Shown here piece by piece: positions 2,662 through 49,550 of a DNA stretch of 64,000 nucleotides. The first letter of the stretch is position 1, and each line of letters begins with the position of its first letter. The translations under genes and the position numbers were made by a program. The notes beneath the pieces are model-generated. The model was given only the letters and a program-made list of their open reading frames with translations, was not told the origin of the DNA and did not search any database. The DNA is from SAR116 cluster bacterium AG-447-A06 (GTDB lineage Bacteria > Pseudomonadota > Alphaproteobacteria > Puniceispirillales > Puniceispirillaceae): NCBI GenBank assembly GCA_003212345.1, contig QCPZ01000006.1, positions 1 to 64,000 on the forward strand, given 5' to 3'.

Positions 2662-2690
2662 TGTTTATTTACCCCTAGTTAAAGAATCAT

Positions 2691-10863: not shown

Positions 10864-10979
10864 TACAATTCCCAACGACTAACAAAGAGCCTGATTGATT
10901 CCGCCAAATATTGCCATAAGGGTTACTCACGAGTATTCTCATTTCGCCAACTATCACCTATTTCTTGCCTAAAATCGCC

Positions 10980-12029
10980 TTATCCAAAGAAATTTCTAAT
11001 TTCGATCGCCAATTTATCAACCGCATCAACATCAATATCAAGATGGGTTACGAGGCGAATGGTAGGCTCACCGCCACCCAACAAGATACCTCTTTCAGCA
11101 AGATATTTACGTAAAGGCTTTGCTGATCCATCCGGGAGCTTCATAAACACCATATTGGTTTCCACCAGATCTTCTTTTACCTCCACCTTGTCAATACGAT
11201 TTAATTGATCCGCGAGTCTTAATGCGTTGGTGTGATCTACGGCGAGACGCTCAATATGATGATCCAGCGCATAAAGCCCTGCCGCAGCTAAAATACCCAC
11301 TTGGCGCATCCCACCCCCAACAAGTTTTCGCATACGGCGCGCCCGCTCAATGAACGCCTCAGACCCAACCAACACTGATCCTGCTGGCGTCCCAAGTCCC
11401 TTGGAAAGACAGAGTGACACGCTATCAACGGCGTTAACTATAAGGCGTGCTGGCACGCCCAGCTTGACGGCAGCATTCATAAGGCGCGCTCCATCCAGAT
11501 GAACAAACAACTCTCGAGCCTTTGCGGCTGTAGCTAGAGCGTTGATATGCTCAGCGTCGTGCACGTGTCCATATACTGTGTTTTCAAGACACAGGAGACG
11601 GCTGATCGGACAATGCAAATCATCTGGCTTGATCGCAGCGGTAATATCTGATGTTCGCATTGCGCCGCGGTGGTCAGTTGCAAGCGCACCCATCATCACA
11701 CCGCCAAGGACTGAAACACCGCCGGCTTCATATCGGTGGATGTGAAAACAGTCACCAACCAATAATTCATCACCGCGCTGACAATGCGACAGTAACGCCA
11801 CAAGGTTGGACTGGGTTCCACTGGCAACGAATAGGCCAGCTTCCTTTCCAAGCAATTGAGCAGCCCGCTCTTGCAATGCGTTCACCGTAGGGTCATCCCC
11901 ATACACATCATCACCAACTTCAGCATTTGCCATGGCGTCCCGCATTGCCCTTGTTGGCTGGGTTACGGTATCACTTCGCATATCAATATGTGCCAACTCA
12001 TTCCTTTGGATCGTATCTTGACACACCAT
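10980..12029 (-). CDS. ltaE: Low-specificity threonine aldolase
   Basis: A PLP enzyme cleaving L-threonine or L-allo-threonine to glycine and acetaldehyde. The 349-residue product shows the family N-terminus [20 protein letters not shown], the [15 protein letters not shown] stretch, [20 protein letters not shown], a conserved LENTVYG, and the PLP-lysine in [18 protein letters not shown] (about residue 206). The start codon shares one base with the stop of the upstream flavoprotein gene (TAATG), so the two are translated as a unit. The metabolic link between the two is not obvious. Confidence 0.93.
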
Positions 12030-13261
12030 TACGCCGCTCCACTTGCGACAAAACCCTTTAAGTCAAAATCAGCATTGCCAATATCTGAGGGAGGTGGCGA
12101 CAGGCCTAAATCAAGGCATTTTTTACCTAGCATGTAGGCCGCAGGATCGCCCACTGCTTCAATCGCTGCAAGCTTTCCAAAAACATCATAGCTCCAAACC
12201 GATAGGCCTCCCTCGCGCTTGCCGCGCCTCACCACATATTGCACAGCAGCAGCTTCTTGCGGAACAATTCCAGCTGACTGCAATCGCACATCAAACTGCT
12301 CAGACCAAAACCATGGTGCCGCTTTTGGTGGCTGGCTGGAACCACAAATCGCCGCCGCCGCCCGTGCTGCTGTATTTTGCGCGTTGTCAACCGACTCAAT
12401 TCGAGACATGGCTCCATCTACAAGTGCCACATCGCCAATTGCATAAATATCTGCATCCGAACTCTGCATCATCCCATCCACAATAATACCGTCACCGGTA
12501 GTAAGACCAGCATCTTTGGCATTACCCAATTCTGGCAAAACGCCTATCCCTAACAACAGCAATTCAGCGTGAATGGTTCTGTCATTATTTATCCGGATAC
12601 CCGAGAACAGACCATCTTTTTGCAAGATTTCCTGATTGATCACCCCAGTATAAATCCCAACATCATTAATTTCATGAAGGTTAGCAAAAAAAGCTGATAT
12701 GTTTGGACTTGCCACCCTTGCTAGAAGGCGTTCCGTCATTTCAATTACATCAACATGTATACCAGCCTTGGTTAGACTGGCGGCAACCTCAAGCCCGATA
12801 TATCCACCCCCAATAACGATCGCACTTTTTCGGCCTTTCATAGCAGAGCGCAGCTCATAGGCATTTCTAGCATGGCGGAGGACAAACACATTTTGAAGAT
12901 TGTTAGCATCATCAAGCTGACGTGGAAAAGCACCGGTAGCCAGTACCAACTTATCATATCTGCAGCATTGTCCATCATCTAGTTGCAACTGTTTCGACTC
13001 TCGATCTATAGCAGTTACCTCCCTACCATCAATCAAGGTAATCTCATGTGAGGTAAACCAATCACTCCGTCGCAATAGAAATTTTTCGTCGTCGCTCCCG
13101 TCAGCCTGCAAAAATCCTTTTGACAATGGAGGACGCTCAAATGGAACTCCAGAAAGCCGGTCAATAAGCTGAATCTGACCGGAAAAGCCATTTGCTCGCA
13201 GCTTTTCTGCGCAAGAAACCCCAGCATGGCTGGCTCCGATAATAATTATAGGATCTGACAT
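12029..13261 (-). CDS. NAD(P)/FAD-dependent oxidoreductase, ferredoxin reductase-like
   Basis: A 410-residue flavoprotein of the putidaredoxin/rhodocoxin reductase type, which moves electrons from NAD(P)H to a small iron-sulfur protein. The FAD-binding GASHAGVSCAEKLR is at the N-terminus, the NAD(P)-binding GGGYIGLEVAASL near residues 152-164, and YAIGDVAL near residue 275. A C-terminal reductase domain follows (APWFWSEQFDVRLQSAGI). No partner ferredoxin is encoded within the neighbouring genes. It overlaps the threonine aldolase gene by one base. The physiological partner is unknown. Confidence 0.88.
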   Translation of the reverse strand: MSDPIIIIGASHAGVSCAEKLRANGFSGQIQLIDRLSGVPFERPPLSKGFLQADGSDDEKFLLRRSDWFTSHEITLIDGREVTAIDRESKQLQLDDGQCCRYDKLVLATGAFPRQLDDANNLQNVFVLRHARNAYELRSAMKGRKSAIVIGGGYIGLEVAASLTKAGIHVDVIEMTERLLARVASPNISAFFANLHEINDVGIYTGVINQEILQKDGLFSGIRINNDRTIHAELLLLGIGVLPELGNAKDAGLTTGDGIIVDGMMQSSDADIYAIGDVALVDGAMSRIESVDNAQNTAARAAAAICGSSQPPKAAPWFWSEQFDVRLQSAGIVPQEAAAVQYVVRRGKREGGLSVWSYDVFGKLAAIEAVGDPAAYMLGKKCLDLGLSPPPSDIGNADFDLKGFVASGAA

Positions 13262-14238: not shown

Positions 14239-15213
14239 CTATTGCCGGCCAACCATAAAACTGCGTCCTTGAAGACGGGCATATACCGCAGCAATTTGCC
14301 CTTCCTCATACATCGCGTTAGCAAGACTGGAACCTGCAGCCAATGCCCGATAAATCTCATCATCGGTTAGAAAGCCAACCGCAACTGTCACCAGCCGGTC
14401 TTGCAAATCACTATCGGGAGCAAGCTCATTAGCCGGCTGGCGCAATATAGCTGGTGAAGATACGGAAATTGCGTTGGCAATCAATGTAGCAGCCACGTCT
14501 GCATCTGCTGCAGTCTTTGCTAACACAGTCACCGAGTCCGCAATGCCAAGTGAATGGCTGCGACCGCGCCACCCGCTCGTGGCGACACCGCCGATTTTAT
14601 CTTCATGGCCAAGCCTGATTTGGCCTTTTAGTGGCATATTGCCTCCAAGTTTTACGCTCGCTTTTTTGGCAAAGCCACTAAAATACACATCCCGATCATC
14701 AGCAATACCGATATCGAAAAAGGCTCCCTTGCTTAGGTGGAGCGCAATATCTCCACCATTATTTACAATAGCACGATCGAGCCCACCACCCATGGTATAC
14801 AGAATATAATCGGCTACGCTGCCAGCAACTGCTACCATTGGGGTGATAAAATCACCGCTTTCATAACGGTGCAAATGTGGACGAATAGCCTCATCCATGC
14901 GTTTTGCAACCAAACCTTCTAAATTTGGTGGCGGGAGCGCATTTGCCGGCGCACGCAATATTGGCAATTCCTCAACGAGGGCCGCAAGAAGACCGTCAAA
15001 GGCAACAGCTGCCCGTGCAAAAGCATTCATCACGACATCTGTTGCGCCATCAGCACTGATAATCAGATCAATCGGCCCGTGCTGTAAATGCAACCGCTGA
15101 TCAAGCCAATTTGCCACAGCTCCCCCTGGCATTTGCAAAGGCACACCCGCCACCAATGGCAAATTGGCCATATTTGAAGCAAGTATATCTGTTTTGCTTT
15201 TGACCTGCAGCAT
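14239..15213 (-). CDS. UPF0280 family protein (ApbE-like)
   Basis: A 324-residue soluble protein of the UPF0280 family, distantly related to the ApbE flavin-transferase fold. Family features include the Gly/Ala-rich MVAVAGSVADYILYTMGGG segment, NNGGDIALHL, and VATSGWRGRSHSLGIADSVTVLA. It starts three bases after the 6-hydroxynicotinate reductase gene, so it is co-transcribed and probably works with it. ApbE itself attaches FMN covalently; whether this protein modifies the reductase or handles a cofactor is inference. It is the last gene of the cluster. Confidence 0.8.
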   Translation of the reverse strand: MLQVKSKTDILASNMANLPLVAGVPLQMPGGAVANWLDQRLHLQHGPIDLIISADGATDVVMNAFARAAVAFDGLLAALVEELPILRAPANALPPPNLEGLVAKRMDEAIRPHLHRYESGDFITPMVAVAGSVADYILYTMGGGLDRAIVNNGGDIALHLSKGAFFDIGIADDRDVYFSGFAKKASVKLGGNMPLKGQIRLGHEDKIGGVATSGWRGRSHSLGIADSVTVLAKTAADADVAATLIANAISVSSPAILRQPANELAPDSDLQDRLVTVAVGFLTDDEIYRALAAGSSLANAMYEEGQIAAVYARLQGRSFMVGRQ

Positions 15214-15216
15214 ACC

Positions 15217-16716
15217 CTACCGCCCGGTTGGCCATGGATTTTGCGGTCGCTGTACAACGCGCTTCTTACCTGCAAGCTTGTGATCATTTTGCGGACCGAT
15301 TTTGCCAGCCAACACATCATCAATCGACATCACATGATCGAGATGCCCACCCAGTGCCATGTAATCACTTTTCCGAAGGGTAAATTCAATCGGGGCAACT
15401 AACGCCGGGGTGGGTACGTAGCCAAAGGCATTTTCTGGAAGATTGGTAACATCCACCATCACCGTAATGCCGCCACCGGGCCAAATATAGGCAGGCGCCC
15501 CGCCACAAGTTACTCGGGTCAACGCATCCTTAACTGACCGTGTTAACATGACCGGATTTTCTGTTACGCCAGCTCGGAGCGAACCACCAGCTCCACCCAT
15601 AAAATTGATCGAAGTTAGTGCCGGTTCACAATTTTCTTCAATACGTTGGATTGAAGGCTGGAGACGTTGCGGCATTTTTTTTGCCACCGGCATCAGACCA
15701 TCGTCCAGCTCGTAATATGCAAATTGTTCGCCGGTAGTTGAAACCATCAATAATGATTGACCGGGCTTAGCAACTTTTGGATCAAACGGCCCAAGAATTG
15801 TCAGAGGATTGGTTAAATTAGTTCCACCCCAGCCAGTACCAGGTTCCGCCACCTGAAAATAACGACCAGGGGTCGATCGGCGACCAATGATCTTTATTCC
15901 GCTTGGTTCCCAGCCGATCACTTTCCCAGCTTGATGTTCGGACATTACACCAGTAATGTGATCGTCGACAATCACCACCTCATCAACAAGGCCATGCCAT
16001 TGGGCCGCGAACATTCCCACCGTTGCCGAACCACAGCCAACACGCATACGTGACTCAACAACATTGTTAATCACCGGCGGCTTACCAGCCTGAAGTACAA
16101 GACTGGATCCGTCATCAACCTGCATGTCGACCGCATCTCCATTGCACAATGCCAGCAAAGTGGCACACGTCACTCGTCCTTCTTTTTTGCTACCACCAGT
16201 AAGATGGTGGACCCCACCGAGGGACAGCATCTGCGAGCCATACTCACCGGTTGTTACATGCCCAACAGGCTCCCCATCGACCCTTACAAAAGCGCGTTCA
16301 GGCCCAATATGGCGATCTGTATCAATTTTTATTTTGGCGCCGCAATAGCTAAAAATGCCCTCGGATACCACGGTGACCATATCAACGCCGTCAACAACGC
16401 TGCCCACAATAAAGGGTGCTGGTTTATAATCTGGATAGGTGGTGCCGGCACCAATAGCCGTAACAAACGCATCTTGTGGGGCAACAAGTTCACCATCCCA
16501 GTCATCCGCACCGTCAAGAAATCGCACCAGTTCGCCACCTTTATCAACGCGGCGCTGCATGACTAACAATGGATCTAGGCGCAAAAGCTGGCCATTTTCA
16601 TTTGCATAACGATCGCACGCACCCGATTTGCCATCAGCTATGAAGCACATCACTGGACAGGCATCGCAGCGGATCTTTTCTTCGATCCGCTTATCGCGAT
16701 TAGTTTTTGTTGTCAT
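15217..16716 (-). CDS. hnr: 6-hydroxynicotinate reductase
   Basis: Predicted to reduce 6-hydroxynicotinate to 1,4,5,6-tetrahydro-6-oxonicotinate with electrons from reduced ferredoxin (EC 1.3.7.1). The 499-residue protein begins with a cysteine cluster, CDACPVMCFIADGKSGACD, suited to a [4Fe-4S] centre, followed by a long conserved body with INFMGGAGGSLRAGVTE and GGAPAYIWPGGGITVMVD. ATG at 16716 is chosen over an open frame to 16764 because it avoids overlapping the hydroxylase gene and has GGGGG upstream. Identification rests on the family pattern and the enamidase and hydroxylase genes in the same cluster. Confidence 0.82.
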   Translation of the reverse strand: MTTKTNRDKRIEEKIRCDACPVMCFIADGKSGACDRYANENGQLLRLDPLLVMQRRVDKGGELVRFLDGADDWDGELVAPQDAFVTAIGAGTTYPDYKPAPFIVGSVVDGVDMVTVVSEGIFSYCGAKIKIDTDRHIGPERAFVRVDGEPVGHVTTGEYGSQMLSLGGVHHLTGGSKKEGRVTCATLLALCNGDAVDMQVDDGSSLVLQAGKPPVINNVVESRMRVGCGSATVGMFAAQWHGLVDEVVIVDDHITGVMSEHQAGKVIGWEPSGIKIIGRRSTPGRYFQVAEPGTGWGGTNLTNPLTILGPFDPKVAKPGQSLLMVSTTGEQFAYYELDDGLMPVAKKMPQRLQPSIQRIEENCEPALTSINFMGGAGGSLRAGVTENPVMLTRSVKDALTRVTCGGAPAYIWPGGGITVMVDVTNLPENAFGYVPTPALVAPIEFTLRKSDYMALGGHLDHVMSIDDVLAGKIGPQNDHKLAGKKRVVQRPQNPWPTGR

Positions 16717-16735
16717 CCTTTGCGCCCCCTGATTC

Positions 16736-19477
16736 TTATGCCTTTGTCGCCGCAATCGCTGCACAAATTTTATCTGGCGTTGCAGGCAAGTCCGTAATGC
16801 TGGCCCCAGTCGCGTGCCGGATCGCGTTCAGAATTGCCGGGGCTGTTGGAATGAGAACATGCTCACCAAGACCTTTCGCCCCATATGGCCCCTCATCGTC
16901 TGGAACCTCAACAATCACATGGTGGAATTCAGGCACATCACCGATTGTGGGTATAAGGTAATCATGTAGGTTTTCAGTGCGGCCAGGTCGATAATCCTCC
17001 ATTAATGCCAGCCCAATACCTTGAGCAACACCACCCTCAATCTGTCCCTCGACGAGTAGAGGATTGATCGCTCGGCCAACATCATGCGCGGTAGTTATTG
17101 TCTTAAGCTTCACAATGCCAAGCACGCAATCAACTTGGAGTTCTATCATCTGGGCGCCATATCCAAACACCGCATAAGGTTTGCCTTGGCCTTTACTATC
17201 AAGCGCACTTGTTGGCGGATCATAGGTTTCCTCAGCCATAAAGACATAGCCATAATCATTAACTGGCAGCCCTCTCAGGTCAATGCGAGCAAAACCACCA
17301 GAATCATCTCTGAGGTTTAGGCTAGTCCCATCAATAGTAATCTTGGCATTGCCATCAACATTACCTTGGCGCAGCAGCATTTCTCGCAAAGCCTGTCCGG
17401 ATAGTAAAGCTGCCTTCCCTGAAACAAAGGTCTGGCGAGACGCTGACGTTTTTCCACAATCAGGCGTCAAGTCTGTGTCGCAATCAACAAGTGTTAAGTC
17501 GTGAACTGAGACGCCAAACGCGTCGGCAGCGATCTGAGAAATCACGGTATTTGAACCTTGGCCAATATCCATTGCGCCTTGATGAAGGACAATTTCACCC
17601 TCTGGGGTAATGCCCATGCGAATTGTAGACGGATTAGGCAATGACGTGTTTCCGCATCCATACCAACAGCTTGCAATCCCGACCCCACTTCGCCATGGAC
17701 TGCCATTCGCAATTGCCTCCTCATTAAAATCAGCTGCTCTCGAAAGTGCATTTTTCCAGGGTCGCTCTAATGCGGCAAAACAATCATCGATACCAACACC
17801 GTTTTTAAAAACCTGTCCAGTAACGGTTGGCACCCCATTTTTGAGAGCGTTACTCCTACGAAATGCGAGCCTGTCCATTCCAATTTCATCAGCCAAAAGA
17901 TCATAGGCGCATTCCTGTGCGATTGCAGATTGTGGCACCCCAAATCCGCGAAAGGCACCAGCTGGCGGTGCATTAGTATGAACCGCCACACTAGTCGCAC
18001 GATAGTGATCAGTTTTATAAGGGCCACAGGCATGAATCGGTACGCGATTCGCAACTGTTGGTCCCCAACTGGCATAAGCACCAGTATTAAAAATACCATC
18101 AAACACAAAACCACTAATCTGGCCCTTTTCATCGCATCCAACTCGTAAATGAATATCAGACGGATGACGTTTTGTTGATGCGCGCATCGACTCGCCACGG
18201 CTGTAGCATATCCGGGCAGGCCGATCTAAATTCCAAGCAGCAAGTGCTACATAAGGCTGGAATGAAATATCAATTTTTGACCCAAATCCGCCGCCACATG
18301 CAGTCGGCATCACCCGAATAGCCTCTGGATCAACATCCATTATCTCAGCAAGGCTCTCGCGGTCCATTTGACTTGCCTGCGTACAACCGCGAATAACAAT
18401 TCTATTGCCCTCGCGCACAGCGTACCCAGCCTCAGGTTCAATATAGGCATGTTCAATAAAAGGTGTTTTAGTTCGAATCTCCACCTTATGTTTAGCAGCG
18501 GCAAGCGCAGAGTCAGCATCCCCACATTCGACATAGCCGCGCACCAGAATATTGCCATCACGACTTTCATGTAAATTCGGTGCATTAACACTCATCGCAG
18601 CTTCAGGGGTCAGTATAGTGTCATGAGGGTCCCAAGTAATAGGAAAATCAGCTTCATCAAATCTGGTTATAACATCGGCCTCTCCAACGATAGCCGCGAC
18701 GGCATCACCGCGATACAACGCCGTTTCCTCGGCAAACACTGGTTGGTCAGCAAAAGGTGGTATCACCCCAAAGCAGTTACGACCGGGAATATCACTGGCG
18801 TCCAGAACTGCCAAAATTTTGGGGTGCTTTGATAAAAATGCGGCCTTATCGCCAATTTTAAAACTAGCATAATGGTGGGGGCTCCGGATAACTCTGACCA
18901 TCAACGAATCTTGGGGTGCAGCGTCATCACCATAAACCAGACTGGCATCCACCTTTGACTGACCATCAAGATGCCTAATTGGAATGCCAACACTACATCC
19001 TAATTGTGGTAAGGGCTTTATCGGCCTATCCAAATTAACCGCCAATACCGCATCAATAATTTTTCCATATCCCGTACAGCGGCACAAAACACCGCCAAGT
19101 GCATCCTCAACATCGCACCTATTTGGGGTTGGGTTTTTTAGAAGCAAAGCATGTGCGGCAACCAACATGCCTGGTGTACAAATCCCACATTGAGCAGCAC
19201 CATGGGCCAAAAAACTCTCTTGCAGATTTGAAATTATGTTTTCGGCATTAAGGCCCTCGATGCTCGTAACTTTTGCCCCAGCAACCTGGGCAACCGTAGT
19301 CAAGCAACTACAGATCGGCTCGCCGTCCAGAAGTACACTACACGCCCCACAATCGCCAGCATTACATCCAATCTTCGTCCCAGAGAGCCCCATTTCACTG
19401 CGGAGTACCTCGCTTAATCGTGTGCTGGGCAAAGACTGGCTGATTACGGCCTTTCCATTCAATGTAAAACAGGTCAT
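16736..19477 (-). CDS. Molybdenum hydroxylase, fused [2Fe-2S] and Mo-binding subunits (nicotinate dehydrogenase-like)
   Basis: A 913-residue xanthine-dehydrogenase-family protein in which the small iron-sulfur subunit is fused ahead of the molybdopterin subunit. Residues 1-155 carry both [2Fe-2S] sites (CNAGDCGACSVLLDGEPIC and CGICTPGM ... CRCTGYG). The remainder is the Mo domain, with GGGFGSKID, GAFRGFGVPQ and the catalytic Glu in GAKGLGEHVL near the C-terminus. In context it should hydroxylate a pyridine-carboxylate ring at C6 using water. It overlaps the FAD-subunit gene by four bases (ATGA). Xanthine or other heterocycle activity cannot be excluded from sequence. Confidence 0.88.
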   Translation of the reverse strand: MTCFTLNGKAVISQSLPSTRLSEVLRSEMGLSGTKIGCNAGDCGACSVLLDGEPICSCLTTVAQVAGAKVTSIEGLNAENIISNLQESFLAHGAAQCGICTPGMLVAAHALLLKNPTPNRCDVEDALGGVLCRCTGYGKIIDAVLAVNLDRPIKPLPQLGCSVGIPIRHLDGQSKVDASLVYGDDAAPQDSLMVRVIRSPHHYASFKIGDKAAFLSKHPKILAVLDASDIPGRNCFGVIPPFADQPVFAEETALYRGDAVAAIVGEADVITRFDEADFPITWDPHDTILTPEAAMSVNAPNLHESRDGNILVRGYVECGDADSALAAAKHKVEIRTKTPFIEHAYIEPEAGYAVREGNRIVIRGCTQASQMDRESLAEIMDVDPEAIRVMPTACGGGFGSKIDISFQPYVALAAWNLDRPARICYSRGESMRASTKRHPSDIHLRVGCDEKGQISGFVFDGIFNTGAYASWGPTVANRVPIHACGPYKTDHYRATSVAVHTNAPPAGAFRGFGVPQSAIAQECAYDLLADEIGMDRLAFRRSNALKNGVPTVTGQVFKNGVGIDDCFAALERPWKNALSRAADFNEEAIANGSPWRSGVGIASCWYGCGNTSLPNPSTIRMGITPEGEIVLHQGAMDIGQGSNTVISQIAADAFGVSVHDLTLVDCDTDLTPDCGKTSASRQTFVSGKAALLSGQALREMLLRQGNVDGNAKITIDGTSLNLRDDSGGFARIDLRGLPVNDYGYVFMAEETYDPPTSALDSKGQGKPYAVFGYGAQMIELQVDCVLGIVKLKTITTAHDVGRAINPLLVEGQIEGGVAQGIGLALMEDYRPGRTENLHDYLIPTIGDVPEFHHVIVEVPDDEGPYGAKGLGEHVLIPTAPAILNAIRHATGASITDLPATPDKICAAIAATKA

Positions 19478-20358
19478 GCCTTCGCCTCACTTGCAAAATA
19501 CTTTTGCTGACCGGCCAACAAACGCCGAACAACCTCAACTGAGGCGTCACGCCGGTATTGGGCAGGGGCGCGAACATCATCAATCGGTGCTAATTCGGTG
19601 AACAGATCCTTCGTAATTCGCTCGCAGGCATTGGCCAATGGTGTTCCACACAAGGCTGACTCAACACGCTCCATTCGTATTGCAACCTCACTGCATGCGC
19701 CAATTGACAGGGCAACAGTTGAGATCATTCCAGCCTTGTCAACATCTAAACGAAGAGCAGCCATGCTAATCGAAATTACCAGATAAGACCGTGCACCAAG
19801 TTTTAAAAAACTAGATTGGCCAGTAGTTGATGTTGATGGAATACGGAGCGCACTGACCATTTCACCGGTTTCCAGCGCCGTTTTTCTGTTTCCTAGAATA
19901 AACTTAGATAATGGCAGATAGCGAAAGCCTGACGTGGAAGCAATTTCTAACTCTGCATCAAGTGTCAGTAATGGCGGCACCCCATCTGCCGCTGGTGATG
20001 CGTTACACAGGTTTCCAACAACTGTAGCGCGGTTCTGGATCTGGATTGACCCCACCTCGCCTGCCGCTTCTTTCAGCCCGTCAAATGCAGGCGGTAAATC
20101 AGCATTAATCACAGCTCGCCAGCTTGTGGCGGCACCAATGCGAAAATAGCTCCCGTCAAAATCTATTGTCCTAAGCGCAGGGATCCCCGAAATATCAAGC
20201 ACTGGCCCTAACAATGGTCTATCTTGAAGTCCAGGAAACACATCAGTTCCCCCTGCCAGAATTACCCTCGGCCCAGCAGCAAGAGCAGAAACCGCCGTTT
20301 CCAGGCTCGCGGGACGTACATAATCTGCCTCTAATTTTTCGTTCAGCCCCTTCTGCAT
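19474..20358 (-). CDS. FAD-binding subunit of the molybdenum hydroxylase
   Basis: A 294-residue member of the FAD-binding subunit family of xanthine-dehydrogenase-type enzymes (CoxM/CutM type); it passes electrons from the iron-sulfur clusters to the acceptor. Visible motifs are the FAD-pyrophosphate loop VILAGGTDVFPGL and NRATVVGNLCNASPAADG, then LPLSKFILGNRKTAL. ATG at 20358 with CAGGGA upstream is preferred to a TTG at 20412. The gene starts about 57 bases after the aldehyde oxidoreductase stop and overlaps the catalytic subunit gene by four bases, supporting one complex. Confidence 0.88.
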   Translation of the reverse strand: MQKGLNEKLEADYVRPASLETAVSALAAGPRVILAGGTDVFPGLQDRPLLGPVLDISGIPALRTIDFDGSYFRIGAATSWRAVINADLPPAFDGLKEAAGEVGSIQIQNRATVVGNLCNASPAADGVPPLLTLDAELEIASTSGFRYLPLSKFILGNRKTALETGEMVSALRIPSTSTTGQSSFLKLGARSYLVISISMAALRLDVDKAGMISTVALSIGACSEVAIRMERVESALCGTPLANACERITKDLFTELAPIDDVRAPAQYRRDASVEVVRRLLAGQQKYFASEAKA

Positions 20359-20415
20359 AACAATCCCTGTGATGCTGCCTTTATTCGCAATCCAGCCTCC
20401 ACTGAAACCCAAACA

Positions 20416-22137
20416 CTAGCCACTGTGTGCATCAAGAAGATTTTGCATCGCAGCGTTCACTTCACTGCTGCGTAGTCGAGCCATTTTGCCAGTTGGTGGC
20501 AAAGGCTCGTCAAGAAAAAAGGAGGGTAGTTCATCGTCATCTTCATCGAATCCAGCCGCGTTGTTGAAAGCTGCCTCAAGACGCAATGTCTCAAGGCCAA
20601 TATTGCGGATGAAATCCGGTGTTACCCCGGCATCAAAAGCATCGTTGATGGCATTGGAGATTAATTCGAGATTGTCGTCGGTAACTGATCTGCCAAACAC
20701 ACAAAGTCCCAATGAGTCCGCGACAGCAGCATTAATCTGCATACGGAGACTTTCAGCCACCAACTCTTCAATATTTTTGTCATCACATTTGAATGTCGCA
20801 TTATTTCCAACAGTGTGGTCTGCACCCTGAGCAGTCACCATCATTGAGATTCCAGTCACTTCAATAAGCCGGGGATCATACGCACTAATTGCTTGTTTTT
20901 TGATTACTGGAACGCGTTTGAAATTTAAGTTTTCACCAACTCTCGCAGTCCCACTCGCATAGAATTTGCCAATTTCACTTCCAGCCATCATTTCCGACGT
21001 TACCTCCTTCATGAAAGAAACGTCTCCAAAGCCACCCTTCCCCGCGTCCATTAAAACAGCTATGGTAGCTCCGAGTTCTATACTGTCCACGCCAAGATCA
21101 TTTGCTATTTCATTCATTCTCGCTACGTCATCCGGATCTTCTAACCCACAATTTGTGCCGAGAAGGCAAATTGTTTCATATTCCATAGGTGAAACAATTT
21201 CTCTTCCAGTATCATCAACATAAACATTGCTACATTTTATCAAGCAACCTGGCATACAGGCGTGCTCCGTTTGCCCGCCACGACTAGTGTTTAATTCTCG
21301 AATGAAAGTGCCACCCATTTTGAAAGCACCACCGTCCTCCGAGGGTTGATGGCCCGAGGTAAAGTTACGAGTTGGCATCGCACCAACATGATTTGTTATA
21401 TCCGCCATCATCGCTGTGCCAGTCGTCCGCAATGTTTGGACAGGCGCAGACTCACCAAGCTTTTTGCCGTACTCTTTTATGGCACCCATGACCTTTTTCC
21501 TGTCATTAACAGGTGGCATCCTATCTTTATCTATTACTATGGCTTTAACCCTCTTGGCGCCCATAACTGCGCCAACACCACCACGTGCCGCGATGCGCGA
21601 TGGTCGGTTGTCTGTATCCGAGAATGTTACACCAGCCATTAGGCCTTCGTATTCTCCTACGGGCCCACAAATACCGAGAGAAGTTTTCTCTCCATACACA
21701 GAATGCAGCTTGGAAGCACACTCAAAATTGCCTAAACCCAAATATGGTTTTGCATCGTCAAAAGTAATACCATTATCCTTGGTAATACGAATGATTACCC
21801 ACTCATCACTAGCTCCACGCAGAGTAATACCAGCAATTTGCAATTGCCCCATTGCAAATCCAAAAGTGCCACCGCTGTTGGCCTCTTTAACTCCACCAGT
21901 CAAAGGGCTTTTACAGCCCACACTGAGCCTATTCGCATTAGAAAAATTAGTTCCTGCAAACGGCCCAACCGAGAAAATTAACGGATTTTCGGGAGCAAGT
22001 GGCTCAACATCAGCAATTTTTTGTTCGAGCAGCATTTTAGCTATCAAATAACGTCCGCATTCAGCAATCTCACGACCATGCAATTCGCGACTACTTACTG
22101 ATCTTTCACCCAAATTTATATCAATATATTTTCGCAT
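20416..22137 (-). CDS. Aldehyde:ferredoxin oxidoreductase family protein (tungsten type)
   Basis: A 573-residue member of the AOR family, whose enzymes oxidise aldehydes to acids with ferredoxin as acceptor using a tungsten (or molybdenum) bis-pterin. The N-terminal domain has GPFAGTNFSNANRLSVGCKS and the pterin-binding ARGGVGAVMGAKRVKAIVI; cysteines for a [4Fe-4S] cluster are in CMPGCLIKC with a further Cys in DSLGLCVFG. It sits between the amidohydrolase and the hydroxylase genes. By context it may oxidise the aldehyde formed by ring opening. AOR enzymes are usually associated with low-oxygen metabolism, so its presence here is notable. Metal and substrate are inferred. Confidence 0.85.
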   Translation of the reverse strand: MRKYIDINLGERSVSSRELHGREIAECGRYLIAKMLLEQKIADVEPLAPENPLIFSVGPFAGTNFSNANRLSVGCKSPLTGGVKEANSGGTFGFAMGQLQIAGITLRGASDEWVIIRITKDNGITFDDAKPYLGLGNFECASKLHSVYGEKTSLGICGPVGEYEGLMAGVTFSDTDNRPSRIAARGGVGAVMGAKRVKAIVIDKDRMPPVNDRKKVMGAIKEYGKKLGESAPVQTLRTTGTAMMADITNHVGAMPTRNFTSGHQPSEDGGAFKMGGTFIRELNTSRGGQTEHACMPGCLIKCSNVYVDDTGREIVSPMEYETICLLGTNCGLEDPDDVARMNEIANDLGVDSIELGATIAVLMDAGKGGFGDVSFMKEVTSEMMAGSEIGKFYASGTARVGENLNFKRVPVIKKQAISAYDPRLIEVTGISMMVTAQGADHTVGNNATFKCDDKNIEELVAESLRMQINAAVADSLGLCVFGRSVTDDNLELISNAINDAFDAGVTPDFIRNIGLETLRLEAAFNNAAGFDEDDDELPSFFLDEPLPPTGKMARLRSSEVNAAMQNLLDAHSG

Positions 22138-22343
22138 TTGTATTCCTATTCAACAATGAATGACGTGACGCTATGGCAGATTCTCTTTACTATCTAATTC
22201 ATTTGTATACTAACAATAATACATCTTGTAAACACTGCAAGACCAACGTCTTTCTGTGCCATAATGCCTCAGTAAACACTAATCAGACTATCCATCACTC
22301 TCAGAGTTAACTTTTTCTGTCCAACCAAATCGTGCAATTTTTT
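22138..22343. promoter_or_regulatory. Intergenic region between enamidase and AOR genes
   Basis: About 206 AT-rich bases with no open frame. It should carry a promoter for the AOR - hydroxylase - hnr - UPF0280 unit on the minus strand. I see scattered TTGTATACT-like half sites near 22204-22212 but no dyad as clear as the one beside the MarR gene. Confidence 0.3.
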
Positions 22344-23516
22344 TTACTGGACAATTTCTGGTAACCTTGTTGCTGGTGGAGTATTACGACTGCGCGCTGT
22401 GCGCACAATACCGTCAATCACAGTCATTCCAACACCCGGCAGATTACCCTGATGAATACTTTCCAGCATATTTTTTCCGGGCGCGTGCTGCGCAGTATCC
22501 ATCAACACAAAATCCGCACTTCGGCCAACTTCAATGATACCAGTATCAAGGTCACGCATTCGCGCCGTGTTACCTGTTGCAAAACAGAACGCAATTTCTG
22601 GAGGAACGTCACCAAGGCTGGATAGTAAGGCAATCATCCGCAAAATACCAAGCGGCTGAACACCTGACCCAGCTGGCGAGTCTGTGCCAAGGATCACTCG
22701 TTCCGGCTGCTTAATCTCAAACGCAGTCCGCATTGCCAGTAATCCAGCCCTTTCATTACCGTTGTGAACAATTTCAATGCCACGACTGCAGTTCTCACAA
22801 AGGCAAGTAATCTGGTCATCAGGAAGTGCCGTATGGCCACCATTGATGTGCCCTATAATATCTGCATCGGCTTCCAGCACAACGTCCTTGTCAATCAGTC
22901 CAGACCCCGGAATTGATGGACCACCCGTGTGAATTGTGGATTGAATGCCATATTTACGTGCCCATTTAACCATTTGCGCCGCGGTTTCGCCAGCTTTCAC
23001 CGATCCCAGGCCAACCTCGCCAAGCAATTTTACGCCAGCATCAGCGAGTTCTTTGAAATCAGACTCCACCATGCCATCCTCTAGCACTGGCGCCCCAGCA
23101 AGCATTTTCACACCTGATGGACGAAAATTTTCGTACCAGCGTTGAGAAGCAATTGCCATAGCCTTAAGCCCAACAATATCTTTGGGCCGGCCAGGCGCAT
23201 GCACTTCACCAGCAGAAATCATTGTTGTCACACCGCCATGCAGGCAGGAATCTATCCAGTTCAATTGCTGCTGACGCGGCGTGTAATCACCAATCACCGG
23301 ATGTACGTGGCTATCAATCAGGCCAGGTGTCAACGTGACACCATGCGCGTGGACATGCACAGTGGCATTATCAAGCTCCATATCCTTAGCATAGCCGATA
23401 CCAGTAATTCGGCCATCAACAGCGATTACGCAATCACCGTCAAGAATTGGCGCCTCAAGCTTGCCCGATAGGATCTGTCCAATATTAGTGATCACAAGTT
23501 TTGCTGACGCCATCAT
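22344..23516 (-). CDS. ena: Enamidase-type amidohydrolase
   Basis: Predicted to open the ring of 1,4,5,6-tetrahydro-6-oxonicotinate to 2-formylglutarate and ammonia. The 390-residue protein has the amidohydrolase metal motif LIDSHVHP, and stretches I recognise from clostridial enamidase: LHGGVTTMISAGEVHAPGRP, GEVGLGSVK, IHTGGPSIPGSG, IGHINGGHTAL, RVILGTDSPAGSGVQPLGI and SRNTPPATR. The double ATG at 23516 follows GGGAGTAAAG, a good ribosome-binding site. It is on the same strand as the hydroxylase and reductase genes and directly downstream of the MarR gene. A dihydroorotase- or hydantoinase-like role is a weaker alternative. Confidence 0.85.
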   Translation of the reverse strand: MMASAKLVITNIGQILSGKLEAPILDGDCVIAVDGRITGIGYAKDMELDNATVHVHAHGVTLTPGLIDSHVHPVIGDYTPRQQQLNWIDSCLHGGVTTMISAGEVHAPGRPKDIVGLKAMAIASQRWYENFRPSGVKMLAGAPVLEDGMVESDFKELADAGVKLLGEVGLGSVKAGETAAQMVKWARKYGIQSTIHTGGPSIPGSGLIDKDVVLEADADIIGHINGGHTALPDDQITCLCENCSRGIEIVHNGNERAGLLAMRTAFEIKQPERVILGTDSPAGSGVQPLGILRMIALLSSLGDVPPEIAFCFATGNTARMRDLDTGIIEVGRSADFVLMDTAQHAPGKNMLESIHQGNLPGVGMTVIDGIVRTARSRNTPPATRLPEIVQ

Positions 23517-23643
23517 CTTTACTCCCACATGTTTACAAGACCCCAAAATCACATTTTGTGATACGGCGAACCATTATCATTAGCAAAAAAACTGACTATC
23601 CAGTCAAGTCACTCGTATATAAAACCCCTTTAAAAGCCGGTCA

Positions 23644-24093
23644 CTATAACTTATCCAATAACGCTAAAAGCCTTGCCAACTCCCGGGGCGTAAGGCGTTC
23701 AGTTGTCTCGCTCGTAATAGCCTGCGCCTTTTCAATAGCAGCTTTAACCACCTTCTGCCCTTCATCGGTTAACGAAATCTGTAACCGACGCAAATCTTCA
23801 CCGTCTTGGCGCGATTGCACCAACCCACGATCAATCAAACGAGTAACAACGCCCTTTGTTGTAGCCGCATCCATCGCAACCAAACGTCCAAGCTGGTTCT
23901 GCGACACCTCACCAATCTCAGAAAGCCGCACAAGAATGGAAAACTGTGTTGGCGTCATTTCAGGAAGGTGGCGCGAAAAAATCTCTAAGTGTCGTTGGCT
24001 GGCCAGCCGAAGCTTATACCCTACCTGATCATCAAGCTGATAGGTGGAAGCATGGGTTTGCGCAAAGGAAAGGTCTAATTCTCTAAATGTCAT
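23644..24093 (-). CDS. MarR-family transcriptional regulator
   Basis: A 149-residue winged-helix regulator. The DNA-binding part is visible as LSEIGEVSQNQLGRLVAMDAATTKGVVTRL (quoted here in two overlapping pieces: LSEIGEVSQNQLGRLVAMD and DAATTKGVVTRLIDRGLV), with the wing in QDGEDLRRLQISLTDEG. MarR proteins bind palindromes as dimers and release on small aromatic ligands, which suits control of an aromatic-acid cluster. ATG at 24093 is preferred over TTG at 24105. It is divergent from the DUF1185 gene and precedes the catabolic genes; two inverted repeats lie in the divergent gap. Confidence 0.9.
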   Translation of the reverse strand: MTFRELDLSFAQTHASTYQLDDQVGYKLRLASQRHLEIFSRHLPEMTPTQFSILVRLSEIGEVSQNQLGRLVAMDAATTKGVVTRLIDRGLVQSRQDGEDLRRLQISLTDEGQKVVKAAIEKAQAITSETTERLTPRELARLLALLDKL

Positions 24094-24127
24094 AACCTTG
24101 ACCAACCTAAATTAAACATCAAAAGAT

Positions 24128-24162
24128 AGAATGTTCTTGACTGATCCTACATGTAACATTCT
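24128..24162. promoter_or_regulatory. Inverted repeat AGAATGTT-N19-AACATTCT upstream of marR
   Basis: Two perfect 8-base arms separated by 19 bases, starting about 35 bases before the MarR start codon. The spacing allows two helical turns between half-sites. It may be an autoregulatory operator or a leader hairpin. Confidence 0.4.
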
Positions 24163-24254
24163 CAAAGAGAAATTACTACTTTTCAAATTTTTACTTTTAA
24201 TTCAATTAGTAATATTTTTAGTAAGCAATAATAGGTATTTGCCTGATACGCAAT

Positions 24255-24278
24255 ATATTGTTTGACAGCAAACAATAT
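24255..24278. promoter_or_regulatory. Perfect 24-bp dyad, likely MarR operator
   Basis: ATATTGTTTG, four bases (ACAG), then CAAACAATAT: two perfect 10-base arms. It lies in the divergent gap, 57 bases before the DUF1185 start. Size and symmetry fit a MarR dimer site. Binding is inferred. Confidence 0.6.
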
Positions 24279-24334
24279 TTATTTTTTGATCAAAAAGCTA
24301 ACTTATTACAAATACGGTACTGAAGGGGACTAGC

Positions 24335-24922
24335 ATGGGATTGGCAAAAATTCGAAAAATTGTAACCGTTGTTGAGGGTACATTTGAAGAAGGCGGTCAA
24401 GAAATATTGCCACCGACGCGCCGCGCCGCAGCCATTGCGGTAATTGAAAACCCTTTTGCTGGCGTATATCTGGAGGACCTCGAGGCACTGATGGCCATTG
24501 GAGAAGAACTTGGCAGCTTGCTCGGTGACAAGTGTGTTGCGGCCTTGGGCGTTGCCCCAGAAGCAGTTCAAAGTTATGGAAAGGCAGCTCTTGTTGGAGA
24601 AAATGGTGAGTTGGAGCACGCCGCGGCAATTCTCCATCCCCGCCTCGGAAAACCATTGCGCTCTTCCGTTGAGAGGGGTGCGGCACTTGTGCCCTCAAAT
24701 AAGAAACGCGGTGGCATGGGTAGTCCACTTGATGTGCCTTTGGGCCATAAAGATGCTGCTTATGTCAGATCACACTTTGATGGAATGGAGGTTCGTATTA
24801 ACGATGCGCCAAAAGCGAACGAAATATTAGTTGCGATTGCAGTTGCTGATTCTGGAAGGCCCTTGCCTCGCGTTGGGGGCCTTACGCATGAGGATGCTGA
24901 GGGCAGAGATGGTTTACGTTAA
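24335..24922 (+). CDS. Amino acid synthesis family protein (DUF1185)
   Basis: A 195-residue protein of the AA_synth/DUF1185 family, with the family segments RKIVTVVEGTFEEGGQ, AVIENPFAGVYLEDLEAL, AALGVAPEAVQSYGKAALVG and HKDAAYVRSHFDGMEVRI. No catalytic mechanism is known to me. ATG at 24335 has GGGGA upstream. It is divergent from marR across a gap carrying a strong dyad, so it is probably part of the same regulon. Relatives occur beside amide-ring hydrolases for heterocyclic compounds, which agrees with the neighbouring enamidase. Confidence 0.85.
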   Translation: MGLAKIRKIVTVVEGTFEEGGQEILPPTRRAAAIAVIENPFAGVYLEDLEALMAIGEELGSLLGDKCVAALGVAPEAVQSYGKAALVGENGELEHAAAILHPRLGKPLRSSVERGAALVPSNKKRGGMGSPLDVPLGHKDAAYVRSHFDGMEVRINDAPKANEILVAIAVADSGRPLPRVGGLTHEDAEGRDGLR

Positions 24923-25892: not shown

Positions 25893-26840
25893 TTATCCAA
25901 ATCTGCGCGTTGCCTCACCAAGTAGCCCAGCATCAACAAGCGCCTCCTCCAGAAATAAAATTTCAGTCTCTTCCAACTTTTGCAATGGTGGCCTTACGAC
26001 CGCTTCTTCAAGTCGTCCTAAAAGTACAAGGCATTCTTTCATCCGATTATGCATATCAAGGAATGGAGCGCGGTAAAAAGCCTGAGCTAGGGGGTAAATT
26101 CGATCGTTAATAGTTCGCGCCGATGCCAGGTCATTGCGCTGCATCGCATTGAATAATTCCACCTGCAAATCAGCAATTACACTGCCGGCCCCAGACAACA
26201 AGCCAGCTGGTCCCATCGATAAAGACGCCATCAGCCATGAGGAATGTGTCGAGAGCACATTGACCCTACGTGGTAAGGATTGAAAGGTGCGAATGTGTCG
26301 CTCATGCAACATTGGATCATTGCACCAATCTTTAATCGCAACAACGCTAGGCACCGCCTTAAATATACGCAGCAGTGTCTCAAACGGATAGCCTAGACCC
26401 GTGCTAGCTGGGTATTGAAATAGGATCAATGGCAAGTCTGTGGCAGAGGCGATCATACTGAAATGATTGATTGCCATTTCTGGACATAATTGCCCACCCA
26501 TGCTCATGCTATTTGGCGGAAACACCAAAAGCGCGCTAGCTCCCTCAGTTGTCGACATTTTAGCAACAGCAACGGCGGCGTGACTGCCGTCAGCATAAAC
26601 GCCATTCACCAATGGCAAGCTGTCGCCCACCTCCTCAAGTGACTCAGCCAAAAGGCGTTGTTGTTCGTTTAGGGTGAAGGCATGGATCTCCGATGCGTGA
26701 CCATTGACCGTGATAGCGTTGAGTCCATCTACAGCCGCAACATCACGCAAATGCTTACGCGATGCCTCGACATCAATTTCGTAATCCTGATGAAATGCAA
26801 CAAGGGTCGCCGGAATCACACCTTCAGCTATAAATGGCAT
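25893..26840 (-). CDS. Dihydrodipicolinate synthase/N-acetylneuraminate lyase family protein
   Basis: A 315-residue TIM-barrel class I aldolase. The Schiff-base lysine is in VVAIKDW (about residue 166), and the catalytic tyrosine region is LFQYPASTGLGY (about residue 139). The GxxGE-type pyruvate-binding loop is replaced by NGHASEIHA, a common variation in catabolic members, so it is unlikely to be biosynthetic DapA. It follows livF by 22 bases, suggesting that the importer brings in its substrate or a precursor. The reaction (retro-aldol or dehydratase) is not defined. Confidence 0.85.
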   Translation of the reverse strand: MPFIAEGVIPATLVAFHQDYEIDVEASRKHLRDVAAVDGLNAITVNGHASEIHAFTLNEQQRLLAESLEEVGDSLPLVNGVYADGSHAAVAVAKMSTTEGASALLVFPPNSMSMGGQLCPEMAINHFSMIASATDLPLILFQYPASTGLGYPFETLLRIFKAVPSVVAIKDWCNDPMLHERHIRTFQSLPRRVNVLSTHSSWLMASLSMGPAGLLSGAGSVIADLQVELFNAMQRNDLASARTINDRIYPLAQAFYRAPFLDMHNRMKECLVLLGRLEEAVVRPPLQKLEETEILFLEEALVDAGLLGEATRRFG

Positions 26841-26862: not shown

Positions 26863-27507
26863 TCAATTTTCTACTATCGATCCCCGTTCGATGACATATG
26901 TTCTGTCAATCACATCAGCAACATGCGCGTCATTAGACTCAGCAATTATTATTGACACCCCTTCTTTTTTCAAGGAGGCCAGAATTTCACCCATCCGTTG
27001 GGCAAGAACAGGTGCAATACCCTCCGTCGGCTCATCTAACAAGAGTAGAGTCTTGCCAACCATGAGAGCTCGGGCTAATGCGACCAGCTTTTGCTGTCCA
27101 CCAGAAAGTGATGTTGCTGGCATTTCCCTGAACTTTTCACATTCGGGGATGATTTTGTAAATCCACTTAAGGCGGGTCTCATACCCCTCAATATTAGTCG
27201 ACCAAACTGGCACAAGAATATTCTGCTCCGCAGTCATTTCTGGCACCAAACGGCGATCCTCAGGCATGTAACCAAAGCCCATGTGAGCTCTTCGGTAACC
27301 CGGCAAATCTCTCAACTCCTGGTCTTTGTGAAGGATGCTACCATTAAGGAAAGGCAGTAGTCCCATTACCGACCTGAGAAAAGTTGTTTTCCCAGCACCA
27401 TTTCTTCCAATCAAACCAACAATTTCACCAGTGTTTATTTCCAACTGGATACCCCTTAGTATCGGAGTACTGTTTATGTCGACATCAAGAGCGTTAACAG
27501 CAAGCAT
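26863..27507 (-). CDS. livF: Branched-chain-type ABC transporter ATP-binding protein
   Basis: A 214-residue ATPase of the LivF type that powers uptake at the cytoplasmic face. Walker A is GRNGAGKTTF, the ABC signature is SLSGGQQ, and Walker B is LLLLDEPTEGIAP. At 214 residues it is slightly shorter than the usual 230 or so. It starts nine bases after livG and is the last importer gene before the DapA-family gene. The liv name refers to the family; the ligand need not be an amino acid. Confidence 0.92.
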   Translation of the reverse strand: MLAVNALDVDINSTPILRGIQLEINTGEIVGLIGRNGAGKTTFLRSVMGLLPFLNGSILHKDQELRDLPGYRRAHMGFGYMPEDRRLVPEMTAEQNILVPVWSTNIEGYETRLKWIYKIIPECEKFREMPATSLSGGQQKLVALARALMVGKTLLLLDEPTEGIAPVLAQRMGEILASLKKEGVSIIIAESNDAHVADVIDRTYVIERGSIVEN

Positions 27508-27516
27508 AATAAGTTC

Positions 27517-28290
27517 CTATTTCTTTTTCTTATGGTGCTCTTTTCCAATTACGAACTCTTGCACCTTTTTGTCAGCCAAGGCTTTCTTCGGCGGCATGTC
27601 AGCAATTATTTCACCCTGATAAAACGCAAGAACACGATTGACATACCTTGCAACAATTTCCATGTCATGCTCAACAAACAGGACTGTAACACCGTCTTCT
27701 TTCAAAGCACCCATGACGATGTCCATAAAATCAAACTTTTCCTCAACGCTGATGCCACTTGTCGGCTCATCCAAGAGAAGTATGCGGGGCTTACTAACAA
27801 CAGCCATTGCAATATCAAGCAGCTTTCTTACTCCTTGCGCGAGAGCACTAACCGTTGAGTCTTTGTGATCCTCCAGCTTATATCGGTCAAGAACCCCATC
27901 GAGCTGTCGTCTAAGCTCAGGTGTGTCCATTAAGCTAAGCGCCTGCGCACCCTTATTGTTAGCTATAGCCAGCGCAATCATCAAATTCTCAGAAACTGTC
28001 ATGGAGTGGAAGACCTGAGACACTTGGAAAGAACGCGATATACCAGCATGGGTGATTTTTCTTGTTTCTAGCCCTATTAACTCTTTGCCTTCAAACTTTA
28101 TACTGCCTTCAGTCGGCGCAAGGTAACCGGTAACCATGTTTACAAAACACGTTTTTCCAGCGCCGTTCGCACCGATAATGCCAACAACTTCTCCTTTTGA
28201 AATGTCGACATTAATGTCTTTCGCAGCAACAACCGCGCCAAAAGTTTTGAGTAGATCGCGAACTTCAAGGATCGGTGGATTATTTTGCAT
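27517..28290 (-). CDS. livG: Branched-chain-type ABC transporter ATP-binding protein
   Basis: A 257-residue ATPase of the LivG type. Walker A is GANGAGKTCF and Walker B is ILLLDEPTSGIS. The ABC signature is unusual: SALAQGVRKLLDIAMAV, where most LivG proteins have a clearer LSxGxQ. ATG at 28290 is preferred over an upstream start inside livM, and overlaps the livM stop by about ten bases. It should form a heterodimer with the LivF-type subunit. Confidence 0.9.
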   Translation of the reverse strand: MQNNPPILEVRDLLKTFGAVVAAKDINVDISKGEVVGIIGANGAGKTCFVNMVTGYLAPTEGSIKFEGKELIGLETRKITHAGISRSFQVSQVFHSMTVSENLMIALAIANNKGAQALSLMDTPELRRQLDGVLDRYKLEDHKDSTVSALAQGVRKLLDIAMAVVSKPRILLLDEPTSGISVEEKFDFMDIVMGALKEDGVTVLFVEHDMEIVARYVNRVLAFYQGEIIADMPPKKALADKKVQEFVIGKEHHKKKK

Positions 28291-29221
28291 TTTTCTTACC
28301 TCCCAACTTCTCCAGCAGACTCCATATCCCACCCGGCACAAAGAAGATGATTGTTAAGAAAGTCGCCCCCATGATTAGCTGCCAAGCTTGAGGCGCCAAT
28401 TCGAAAGCGTATGTCCTGAGAACCTCAAAAACTAGGGATCCGATGAATGGCGCAATGACATTACCAGGACCAGAAAGGATTGTAACGAATACAAGCTCTC
28501 CTGATACAGTCCAGTTAATCATCGACTCTGGATCCACCTGGCCAAGCGACATTGCCATCAAAGCACCGGCACCACCAGCCAGAATAGTTGAAATAGTGTA
28601 TTTCAAGTGTATTGCATGGGCGACCGAAAAACCAAGATACTCAACCCTGATCTCGTTGTCTCTGATAGCTGTGGTTAATTTTCCAACGGTCGTTTTCAAA
28701 TAAAAATTAACCAGTAGCGCAGACGTTAACCCAATCAGAGTAATAATGACAAATAGTGGATATTTAGACTCAGGAGCGAACCCCAGTATTGTAGACATTG
28801 ATATAGCAAAACCATCCGTTGAACCTAAGGACTCTGTTTTCACCACGATGCCAAACAACACCATCGATATAGCAGTATTGAGCATTGCAAAAAATATATC
28901 TCTGTAATTTCGCATAATAAAGCCAACCAGGAAACCAGCCGTGCCAGCCACTACTGCACCCGCCAATAGTCTCAAAAATACATCTGTCACGCCTAGCTCG
29001 ATGTCTAGGATCGCGACCGCGTACGCTCCTAATCCAAAATAAAAGGCATGGCCAAAAGAGACCAAGCCTGTGCGCCACAAGACCATAAGACCAAGAATTG
29101 CAAGCGCCCTGGCAAATCCAAACATAAATTGGTTCACAATCCAATTGGGAGCAAAAGCGCCACCAATACAAAGGACCAGCCCCGCCAACAGTATAAATTT
29201 CGCGGTTTTATCGTTAAACAT
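28280..29221 (-). CDS. livM: Branched-chain-type ABC transporter permease
   Basis: A 313-residue permease with about nine hydrophobic helices. The family pattern is visible in VLWRTGLVSFGHAFYFGLGAY (two pieces: VLWRTGLVSFGHAFYF and the GLGAY turn) and in the cytoplasmic loop RVEYLGFSVAHAIHLKY, which contacts the ATPases. ATG at 29221 follows the livH stop by one base, so an upstream in-frame start is unlikely. The C-terminus ends in KLGGKKNAK and overlaps livG. Confidence 0.91.
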   Translation of the reverse strand: MFNDKTAKFILLAGLVLCIGGAFAPNWIVNQFMFGFARALAILGLMVLWRTGLVSFGHAFYFGLGAYAVAILDIELGVTDVFLRLLAGAVVAGTAGFLVGFIMRNYRDIFFAMLNTAISMVLFGIVVKTESLGSTDGFAISMSTILGFAPESKYPLFVIITLIGLTSALLVNFYLKTTVGKLTTAIRDNEIRVEYLGFSVAHAIHLKYTISTILAGGAGALMAMSLGQVDPESMINWTVSGELVFVTILSGPGNVIAPFIGSLVFEVLRTYAFELAPQAWQLIMGATFLTIIFFVPGGIWSLLEKLGGKKNAK

Positions 29222-29222
29222 C

Positions 29223-30137: not shown

Positions 30138-30161
30138 GAATTGAAATTAAAAAGAGACTAA

Positions 30162-30199
30162 ACAAAAATTTCACCAGCAGGCAAAACCTGCTGGTGAAA
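30162..30199 (-). terminator. Attenuating hairpin between livK and livH
   Basis: TTTCACCAGCAGG and CCTGCTGGTGAAA form perfect 13-bp arms around a five-base loop. On the minus strand it is followed by TTTTTGTTT. It starts ten bases after the livK stop. It can act as a partial terminator or 3' stabiliser that keeps binding-protein mRNA in excess over the permease message. Confidence 0.8.
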
Positions 30200-30209
30200 G
30201 ATTACTAAA

Positions 30210-31502: not shown

Positions 31503-31776
31503 TAAAACCTCCCTGATTTTAATATTTTTCTGCTCGGTGTCATCACCACGTCTGATCGGCGTTAGCACCGTTAAAGACACCACCATAAGACTGAATGAAA
31601 AGCTATTGGTCAAGAGCAGACTTTGATCAGGATGTATAAATTAACGTCCTTTTAATTTCATTCAAAAAAAACTTCAATTTTGGGACTGGAAGGTTATATT
31701 TTTAAAGATGTTCTCAGCGACAAAGAAATGTTTCATCATTCCATGTGTCAAAATTAGATAAAAGGCGGGTGTAGGT

Positions 31777-37776: not shown

Positions 37777-37996
37777 ACTTTCCTAGTTCGAAGTGTGTCT
37801 GGAACCACTTGTAAAATTATCATTTTGCAATTGCTTTGCTTTCGCTATCATTAACGCATTAAAACCTATTTCCTAGTGAATGCAAAAATATCGCACCCAT
37901 TCATTATCGCGATCTATCAGCGAGATGGAAGCAGGCCAAACAAATAAAAGCTGGCTAAGTGCTGTAAAGCCAGCGGGATAAAGCGAGGCAATGCAG

Positions 37997-39815: not shown

Positions 39816-39854
39816 GCGTATCTTCTCTTTTTGCTTGCCTGAGCCTATAGTGAC

Positions 39855-48146: not shown

Positions 48147-48153
48147 GTCCACC

Positions 48154-49446: not shown

Positions 49447-49550
49447 TTTAGTTCCTATGAATAGTGAATGAAGTTTGGACGCCAAATAGAAATTTGAGGA
49501 AGCAAAAAATCTGCGTGGGTCCAACCGCTCTCCGACAAAAGTATATTTTT

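Follow-up and report, generated by a model that had tools for sequence, protein, structure and literature searches.

A predicted nicotinate ring-reduction operon of a SAR116 bacterium with a distinct aldehyde:ferredoxin oxidoreductase and a candidate flavin transferase

Introduction

Where could an aerobe obtain the low-potential electrons with which to reduce a pyridine ring? The question is raised by a minus-strand operon (14239-23552) of SAR116 cluster bacterium AG-447-A06, contig QCPZ01000006.1, of which positions 1-64,000 were analysed (henceforth referred to as the window) with the interval 14239-24922 under study. The operon combines a molybdenum hydroxylase of the nicotinate dehydrogenase (NDH) type, a homologue of 6-hydroxynicotinate reductase (Hnr), a predicted tungsten aldehyde:ferredoxin oxidoreductase (AOR), an enamidase and a UPF0280 protein. 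An initial annotation had read the hydroxylase, the reductase and the enamidase-like amidohydrolase as a fermenter-type pathway that degrades nicotinate, or a related algal pyridine such as one from trigonelline, by ring reduction rather than by oxygenases; it had these three proteins right but overlooked the AOR, UPF0280 and a MarR-family regulator. Ring reduction of nicotinate fits the enzyme families, whereas the fermenter-type framing is not supported, as the Hnr is not of the fermenter form and the route through 1,4,5,6-tetrahydro-6-oxonicotinate (THON) is already on record from two aerobes, Azorhizobium caulinodans and Bradyrhizobiaceae SG-6C, and clusters are also present in Bradyrhizobium and Rhodopseudomonas (PMC3511419). 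Since it has already been published, the ring-reduction route is not new in aerobic alphaproteobacteria: the core pathway is ordinary and known, and what is new lies in the AOR subfamily, the shortened Hnr and its link to UPF0280. On balance we favour a reading in which a THON-route operon would be served by an AOR that returns electrons to Hnr and by a UPF0280 protein that flavinylates it.

Results and Discussion

The operon is transcribed in the order MarR, enamidase, AOR, FAD subunit, fused Fe-S/Mo subunit, Hnr and UPF0280 (Table 1), and from AOR through UPF0280 neighbouring genes overlap or almost abut. Because homologues of an NDH-type hydroxylase, Hnr and enamidase are all present, the first three steps of the THON pathway are well supported, and very probably act on nicotinate or a close analogue. 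The hydroxylase would put a water-derived oxygen on C6 of nicotinate (or a close carboxypyridine) to give 6-hydroxynicotinate, Hnr would reduce the ring by two electrons to THON, and the enamidase would open it to 2-formylglutarate and ammonia. The nicotinate fermentation cluster of Eubacterium barkeri takes its first three steps with the same enzyme families (NDH, Hnr, enamidase 2VUN), whereas in the window the Mo and Fe-S parts are fused and an AOR is added. The Azorhizobium caulinodans/SG-6C cluster (THON to glutarate; PMC3511419) likewise belongs to aerobic alphaproteobacteria and has Hnr, the first three steps, an ABC importer and conserved proteins of unknown function; no AOR figures in its published description.

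The hydroxylase genes are intact, with Pfam and PDB matches far beyond chance. Chains A, B and D of 3hrd jointly span the fused subunit in three parts, and the top solved match of the FAD subunit is 3hrd_C, the nicotinate dehydrogenase FAD subunit. In a tree of Mo subunits the window enzyme groups with full support among Hnr-linked enzymes of alphaproteobacteria. E. coli XdhA, the xanthine dehydrogenase (XDH)-like enzyme that the genome encodes separately and a CoxL-like protein all fall outside this clade. The subunit matches and the tree thus place it with the NDH type over XDH and CO dehydrogenase, both of which were rejected on these grounds; the firm grouping with either that would have spoken against the initial annotation did not occur.

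The enamidase is 45% identical to the solved E. barkeri enzyme 2VUN (357 bits, the next structure scoring 29 bits), and its binuclear metal ligands (His/Glu/Asp) are invariant. Together with the window Hnr it belongs to one family with the enamidase-linked Hnr and hydroxylase sets of clostridia and deltaproteobacteria, the grouping expected if the original assignment was sound. A genome scan seeded with E. barkeri enamidase gave 80 loci from clostridia, deltaproteobacteria, alpha/betaproteobacteria and others. Among the 40 with full flanks, Hnr was found in 36, UPF0280 in 36, the AA_synth (DUF1185) family in 39 and a Mo hydroxylase in 34, all four together in 32. AA_synth, which recurs with both enamidase and Hnr, occurs in 67/80 loci. 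Elsewhere in the same genome (contig C12, L183:6914-8710) another enamidase-like gene, with 39% identity, sits directly next to a further AA_synth-like gene, a pairing which suggests that the two proteins act together. Enamidase and AA_synth pairs also occur in L112 and L115, short contigs without Hnr titled Candidatus Hecatellales archaeon.

The window Hnr is an intact protein, ~40-45% identical to the Hnr of enamidase-linked anaerobe loci and 58-72% identical to plasmid-record proteins mostly annotated as 6-hydroxynicotinate reductase; it is clustered with enamidase and Mo hydroxylase, and it has no match in Pfam, NCBIfam or PDB. An N-terminal double-cluster ferredoxin domain (two CxxCxxCxxxC motifs before the shared core) was present in 51/51 anaerobe Hnr proteins and in 0/43 from alpha/betaproteobacteria. 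By motif content the window Hnr is of the short alphaproteobacterial form and not of the fermenter form. Purified E. barkeri Hnr reportedly carries a covalent flavin, one [2Fe-2S] and two [4Fe-4S] clusters, and judged against these the window protein would keep the flavin plus a single cysteine motif. Foldseek found no convincing counterpart of its predicted structure (pLDDT 86) in the PDB, and a second look with VIA stayed at Z <5; the family's fold may be one not yet solved, a missing structural match not being proof of a new one.

In 54 of the 57 loci that have both genes, no more than 900 nt separate UPF0280 from Hnr. The model of the window protein matches the flavin transferases ApbE, Ftp and FmnB (VIA Z 13-15, rmsd 3.2-3.9 over 204-215 residues) and the DUF375 structure 2o34 (Z 18.8), with unrelated folds next at ~7.6. 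It shares with the transferases three core motifs (NNGGD, ATSG and ADxxAT), at very low sequence identity. Given this fold and these motifs, UPF0280 is a candidate for attaching the covalent flavin of Hnr. We consider it likely that Hnr is its target and that it installs the flavin which Hnr would require.

The AOR inside the operon has both AFOR domains, and its top solved match is the Pyrococcus enzyme. Catalytic roles have been assigned to T243, E313, Y427 and H448 (PMC12096430), and the alignment shows equivalents of all four. The cluster cysteines are conserved as well, in a spacing one residue longer (CX3CX3C) that is constant across the subfamily. No small or NAD-binding subunit lies beside the gene, whose neighbours encode the hydroxylase FAD subunit and the enamidase, and the layout is therefore that of Class I. 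A lone large subunit, AFOR domains, catalytic residues and cluster cysteines are common to the window AOR and the Class I tungsten oxidoreductases PfAOR and BmWOR (PMC13328260), from which it differs as a distinct subfamily by its CX3CX3C spacing and its co-occurrence with Hnr. The characterised Class I members all use ferredoxin, and one, from an obligate aerobe, is air-stable (PMC13328260).

Members of the subfamily, at 57-79% identity, occur in 16 of 385 alphaproteobacterial genomes and are separated by a gap from the classical AORs at <=34%. Hnr is present in 15/16 of these genomes and in 53/369 of the others (Fisher p=1.8e-11); with the genus of the window excluded it is present in 12/13 (p=3e-9). 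Counted per family, Hnr accompanies the AOR subfamily in 9/9 as against 24/165 (p=1e-7), a test that assumes ~174 family labels and is to be read with related genomes not being independent. Genomes with classical AORs alone have Hnr in 5/16. The AOR is physically linked to enamidase in three families: in this genus, in L166 (AOR-AA_synth-Ena) and in L176/L177 (Ena-AOR). Unlinked AOR genes have no common neighbours beyond the synteny of close relatives, and an AOR was found near enamidase in 0/80 loci of the E. barkeri-enamidase-led scan, including 0/40 with full flanks. An additional phylum sample of 378 genomes gave a match at E<=1e-80 in this genome alone. The genome also carries what, from its TupA motif, we take to be a TupABC-like tungstate transporter, an indirect indication that the AOR may contain tungsten. 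Our literature search found no report of a tungsten AOR in a THON-type nicotinate pathway. The co-occurrence argues that the AOR probably acts in this pathway, so that in aerobic alphaproteobacteria a specific pathway, substrate and partner can be predicted for the subfamily.

What, then, might the AOR do? The conversion of 6-hydroxynicotinate to THON consumes two electrons, and the oxidation of an aldehyde to an acid by AOR yields two, so that one aldehyde would pay for one ring. The enzyme would oxidise formylglutarate, or the glutarate semialdehyde formed from it by decarboxylation, toward glutarate, and the two electrons would return through ferredoxin to Hnr. A ferredoxin-NADP reductase (Fpr) adjoins Hnr in roseobacter clusters, and among Hnr genomes outside this genus the roseobacter-type enzyme occurs in 0/12 with the AOR and 22/53 without it (p=0.005; by family p=0.01), a distribution which supports, without proving, that the AOR stands in for Fpr. 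We regard the feeding of Hnr by AOR through ferredoxin as a plausible proposal, at somewhat less than even confidence, and a redox-balanced aerobic module made of a dedicated AOR subfamily, a short Hnr and a dedicated UPF0280 flavin transferase as a more tentative one. Such a module offers a possible source of low-potential electrons for pyridine ring reduction in an aerobe. The scheme draws on the identities of the parts, conserved gene order, AOR-Hnr co-occurrence, the ApbE fold of UPF0280 and an Hnr without the ferredoxin domain; from these we infer the substrate, all activities, flavin transfer, the AOR substrate and the electron loop.

Several observations weigh against this reading. The operon has no ferredoxin gene, several candidate ferredoxin domains being found elsewhere in the genome, and a ferredoxin reductase-like gene near it is a possible alternative donor to Hnr. 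An Fpr homologue occurs in 4/15 genus members, and strict complementarity of AOR and Fpr was therefore rejected. Most genera that have the AOR, outside this one, do not have it linked to Hnr or enamidase, and a close enamidase is missing from 5/16 genomes with the AOR. The fork that joins the window hydroxylase to Hnr-linked anaerobe enzymes (including that of Acetobacterium bakii) has weak support (80/37), and the Hnr comparison used enamidase-linked anaerobe homologues in place of the true E. barkeri Hnr sequence.

In one alternative account the pathway is the same, but the AOR only disposes of its aldehyde or of other aldehydes and passes the electrons to other acceptors, and Hnr draws on NAD(P)H via a ferredoxin reductase, either the one near the operon or an unlinked one. 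The roseobacter clusters with Fpr beside Hnr, the ferredoxin reductase-like gene that adjoins the operon across the genus and the Fpr homologues of the genus all speak for such a supply, and aldehyde detoxification is the role assigned to most characterised Class I AORs (PMC13328260). Plain detoxification, however, would not predict that the AOR tracks Hnr over nine families, and Fpr is absent from the 12 Hnr-bearing genomes with the AOR outside the genus. We hold this account to be unlikely, if still a serious competitor.

A further alternative is an operon that serves, by the same chemistry, another pyridine carboxylate, such as picolinate or a demethylated marine N-methylpyridine. The divergence of the hydroxylase from the anaerobe NDH would suit another substrate, as would the Rieske VanA-type oxygenases of related roseobacter clusters and the HydAB-like genes that replace enamidase in related genera. 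The operon, however, has no Rieske gene, its enamidase architecture is specific to the THON family, and close cluster parts accompany NicA/NicB nicotinate dehydrogenase-type genes in other records; we find this alternative rather improbable. A Rieske demethylase was looked for in the operon and is absent; a 63% homologue of the roseobacter Hnr-cluster Rieske protein lies on contig C5 (L190:9028-13351), where it adjoins DUF1688 and GTP-cyclohydrolase-like genes of the type of the URC uracil pathway.

That the AOR itself reduces the ring, as does BamB, a benzoyl-CoA reductase that belongs to the AOR family, is very improbable, for the BamB match is weak and confined to the N-terminal part (53 bits, against 186 bits for classical AOR), the catalytic Glu and His of AOR are retained, and Hnr is already available for the ring step. 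Equally remote is a xanthine or aldehyde oxidoreductase in an operon for purine or aldehyde metabolism: XDH models are the top sub-cutoff NCBIfam matches of the hydroxylase and an aldehyde oxidoreductase is its best single PDB chain, but every NCBIfam score is far under cutoff, the tree sets the enzyme apart from XDH and CoxL-like proteins, the genome has its separate XDH-like enzyme, and the neighbours are Hnr and enamidase.

Table 1. Features of the operon and its surroundings in the window
Feature	Coordinates	Strand	Evidence
UPF0280 protein, ApbE-fold, proposed Hnr flavin transferase	14239..15213	-	NF003322 315.7 bits (cutoff 290)
Hnr homologue without N-terminal ferredoxin domain	15217..16764	-	alignment with 40 enamidase-linked homologues; motif count; plasmid annotations
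Fused [2Fe-2S]/Mo subunit, nicotinate-dehydrogenase-type hydroxylase	16736..19477	-	Pfam; PDB 3hrd chains; tree
FAD subunit of hydroxylase	19474..20412	-	PF00941; best PDB match 3hrd_C
Predicted tungsten AOR, distinct subfamily	20416..22137	-	PF02730+PF01314; 1AOR E=8e-54; motifs; Hnr co-occurrence
Enamidase	22344..23552	-	2VUN E=1e-105; metal-site residues invariant
MarR-family regulator	23644..24105	-	PF01047; MarR homologues 41-58% next to related clusters
AA_synth (DUF1185) protein, divergent from operon	24335..24922	+	PF06684; PDB 2qtp; 67/80 enamidase loci
DapA-family lyase/aldolase, kept in genus	25893..26840	-	PF00701; synteny
Branched-chain-type ABC importer: 2 ATPases, 2 permeases, binding protein	26863..31613	-	ORFs; PF13458
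Ferredoxin reductase-like flavoprotein	12029..13261	-	PF07992/PF14759; NCBIfam dioxygenase ferredoxin reductase models sub-cutoff; synteny

Hnr is present in 15/16 genomes of the same genus, and where the locus is covered the order is (GcvT-ThrAld-FdRed)-HAD-UPF0280-Hnr-MoFe-FAD-AOR-Ena-MarR-AA_synth, FdRed being missing at one locus. Other Hnr-bearing genera of the family and order have Hnr, UPF0280 and MoFe, mostly with AA_synth or HydAB, and neither AOR nor enamidase at the Hnr locus. Related clusters with genes annotated 6-hydroxynicotinate reductase are found in Sulfitobacter, Sagittula and rhizobial plasmids. For the placeholder-named families UPF0280 and AA_synth these associations propose concrete candidate jobs. 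The substrate is likely taken up through the branched-chain-type ABC importer, and importers resembling it also adjoin related clusters.

The bc1 (650-3251) and HemF (3456-4325) genes named in the initial annotation were recovered from the translated open reading frames (ORFs). A GcvT-family protein (9721-10875), whose synteny with the operon holds across the genus, is nearest the DMSP demethylase DmdA (373 bits, cutoff 410). Further along the window, histidinol-dehydrogenase-family, SDR and alcohol dehydrogenase genes (46420-49524) resemble an HpsNOP-type set for degradation of the sulfonate DHPS, and glycosidase-like, AnmK-like and MurQ-like genes (36607-40622) resemble amino-sugar recycling.

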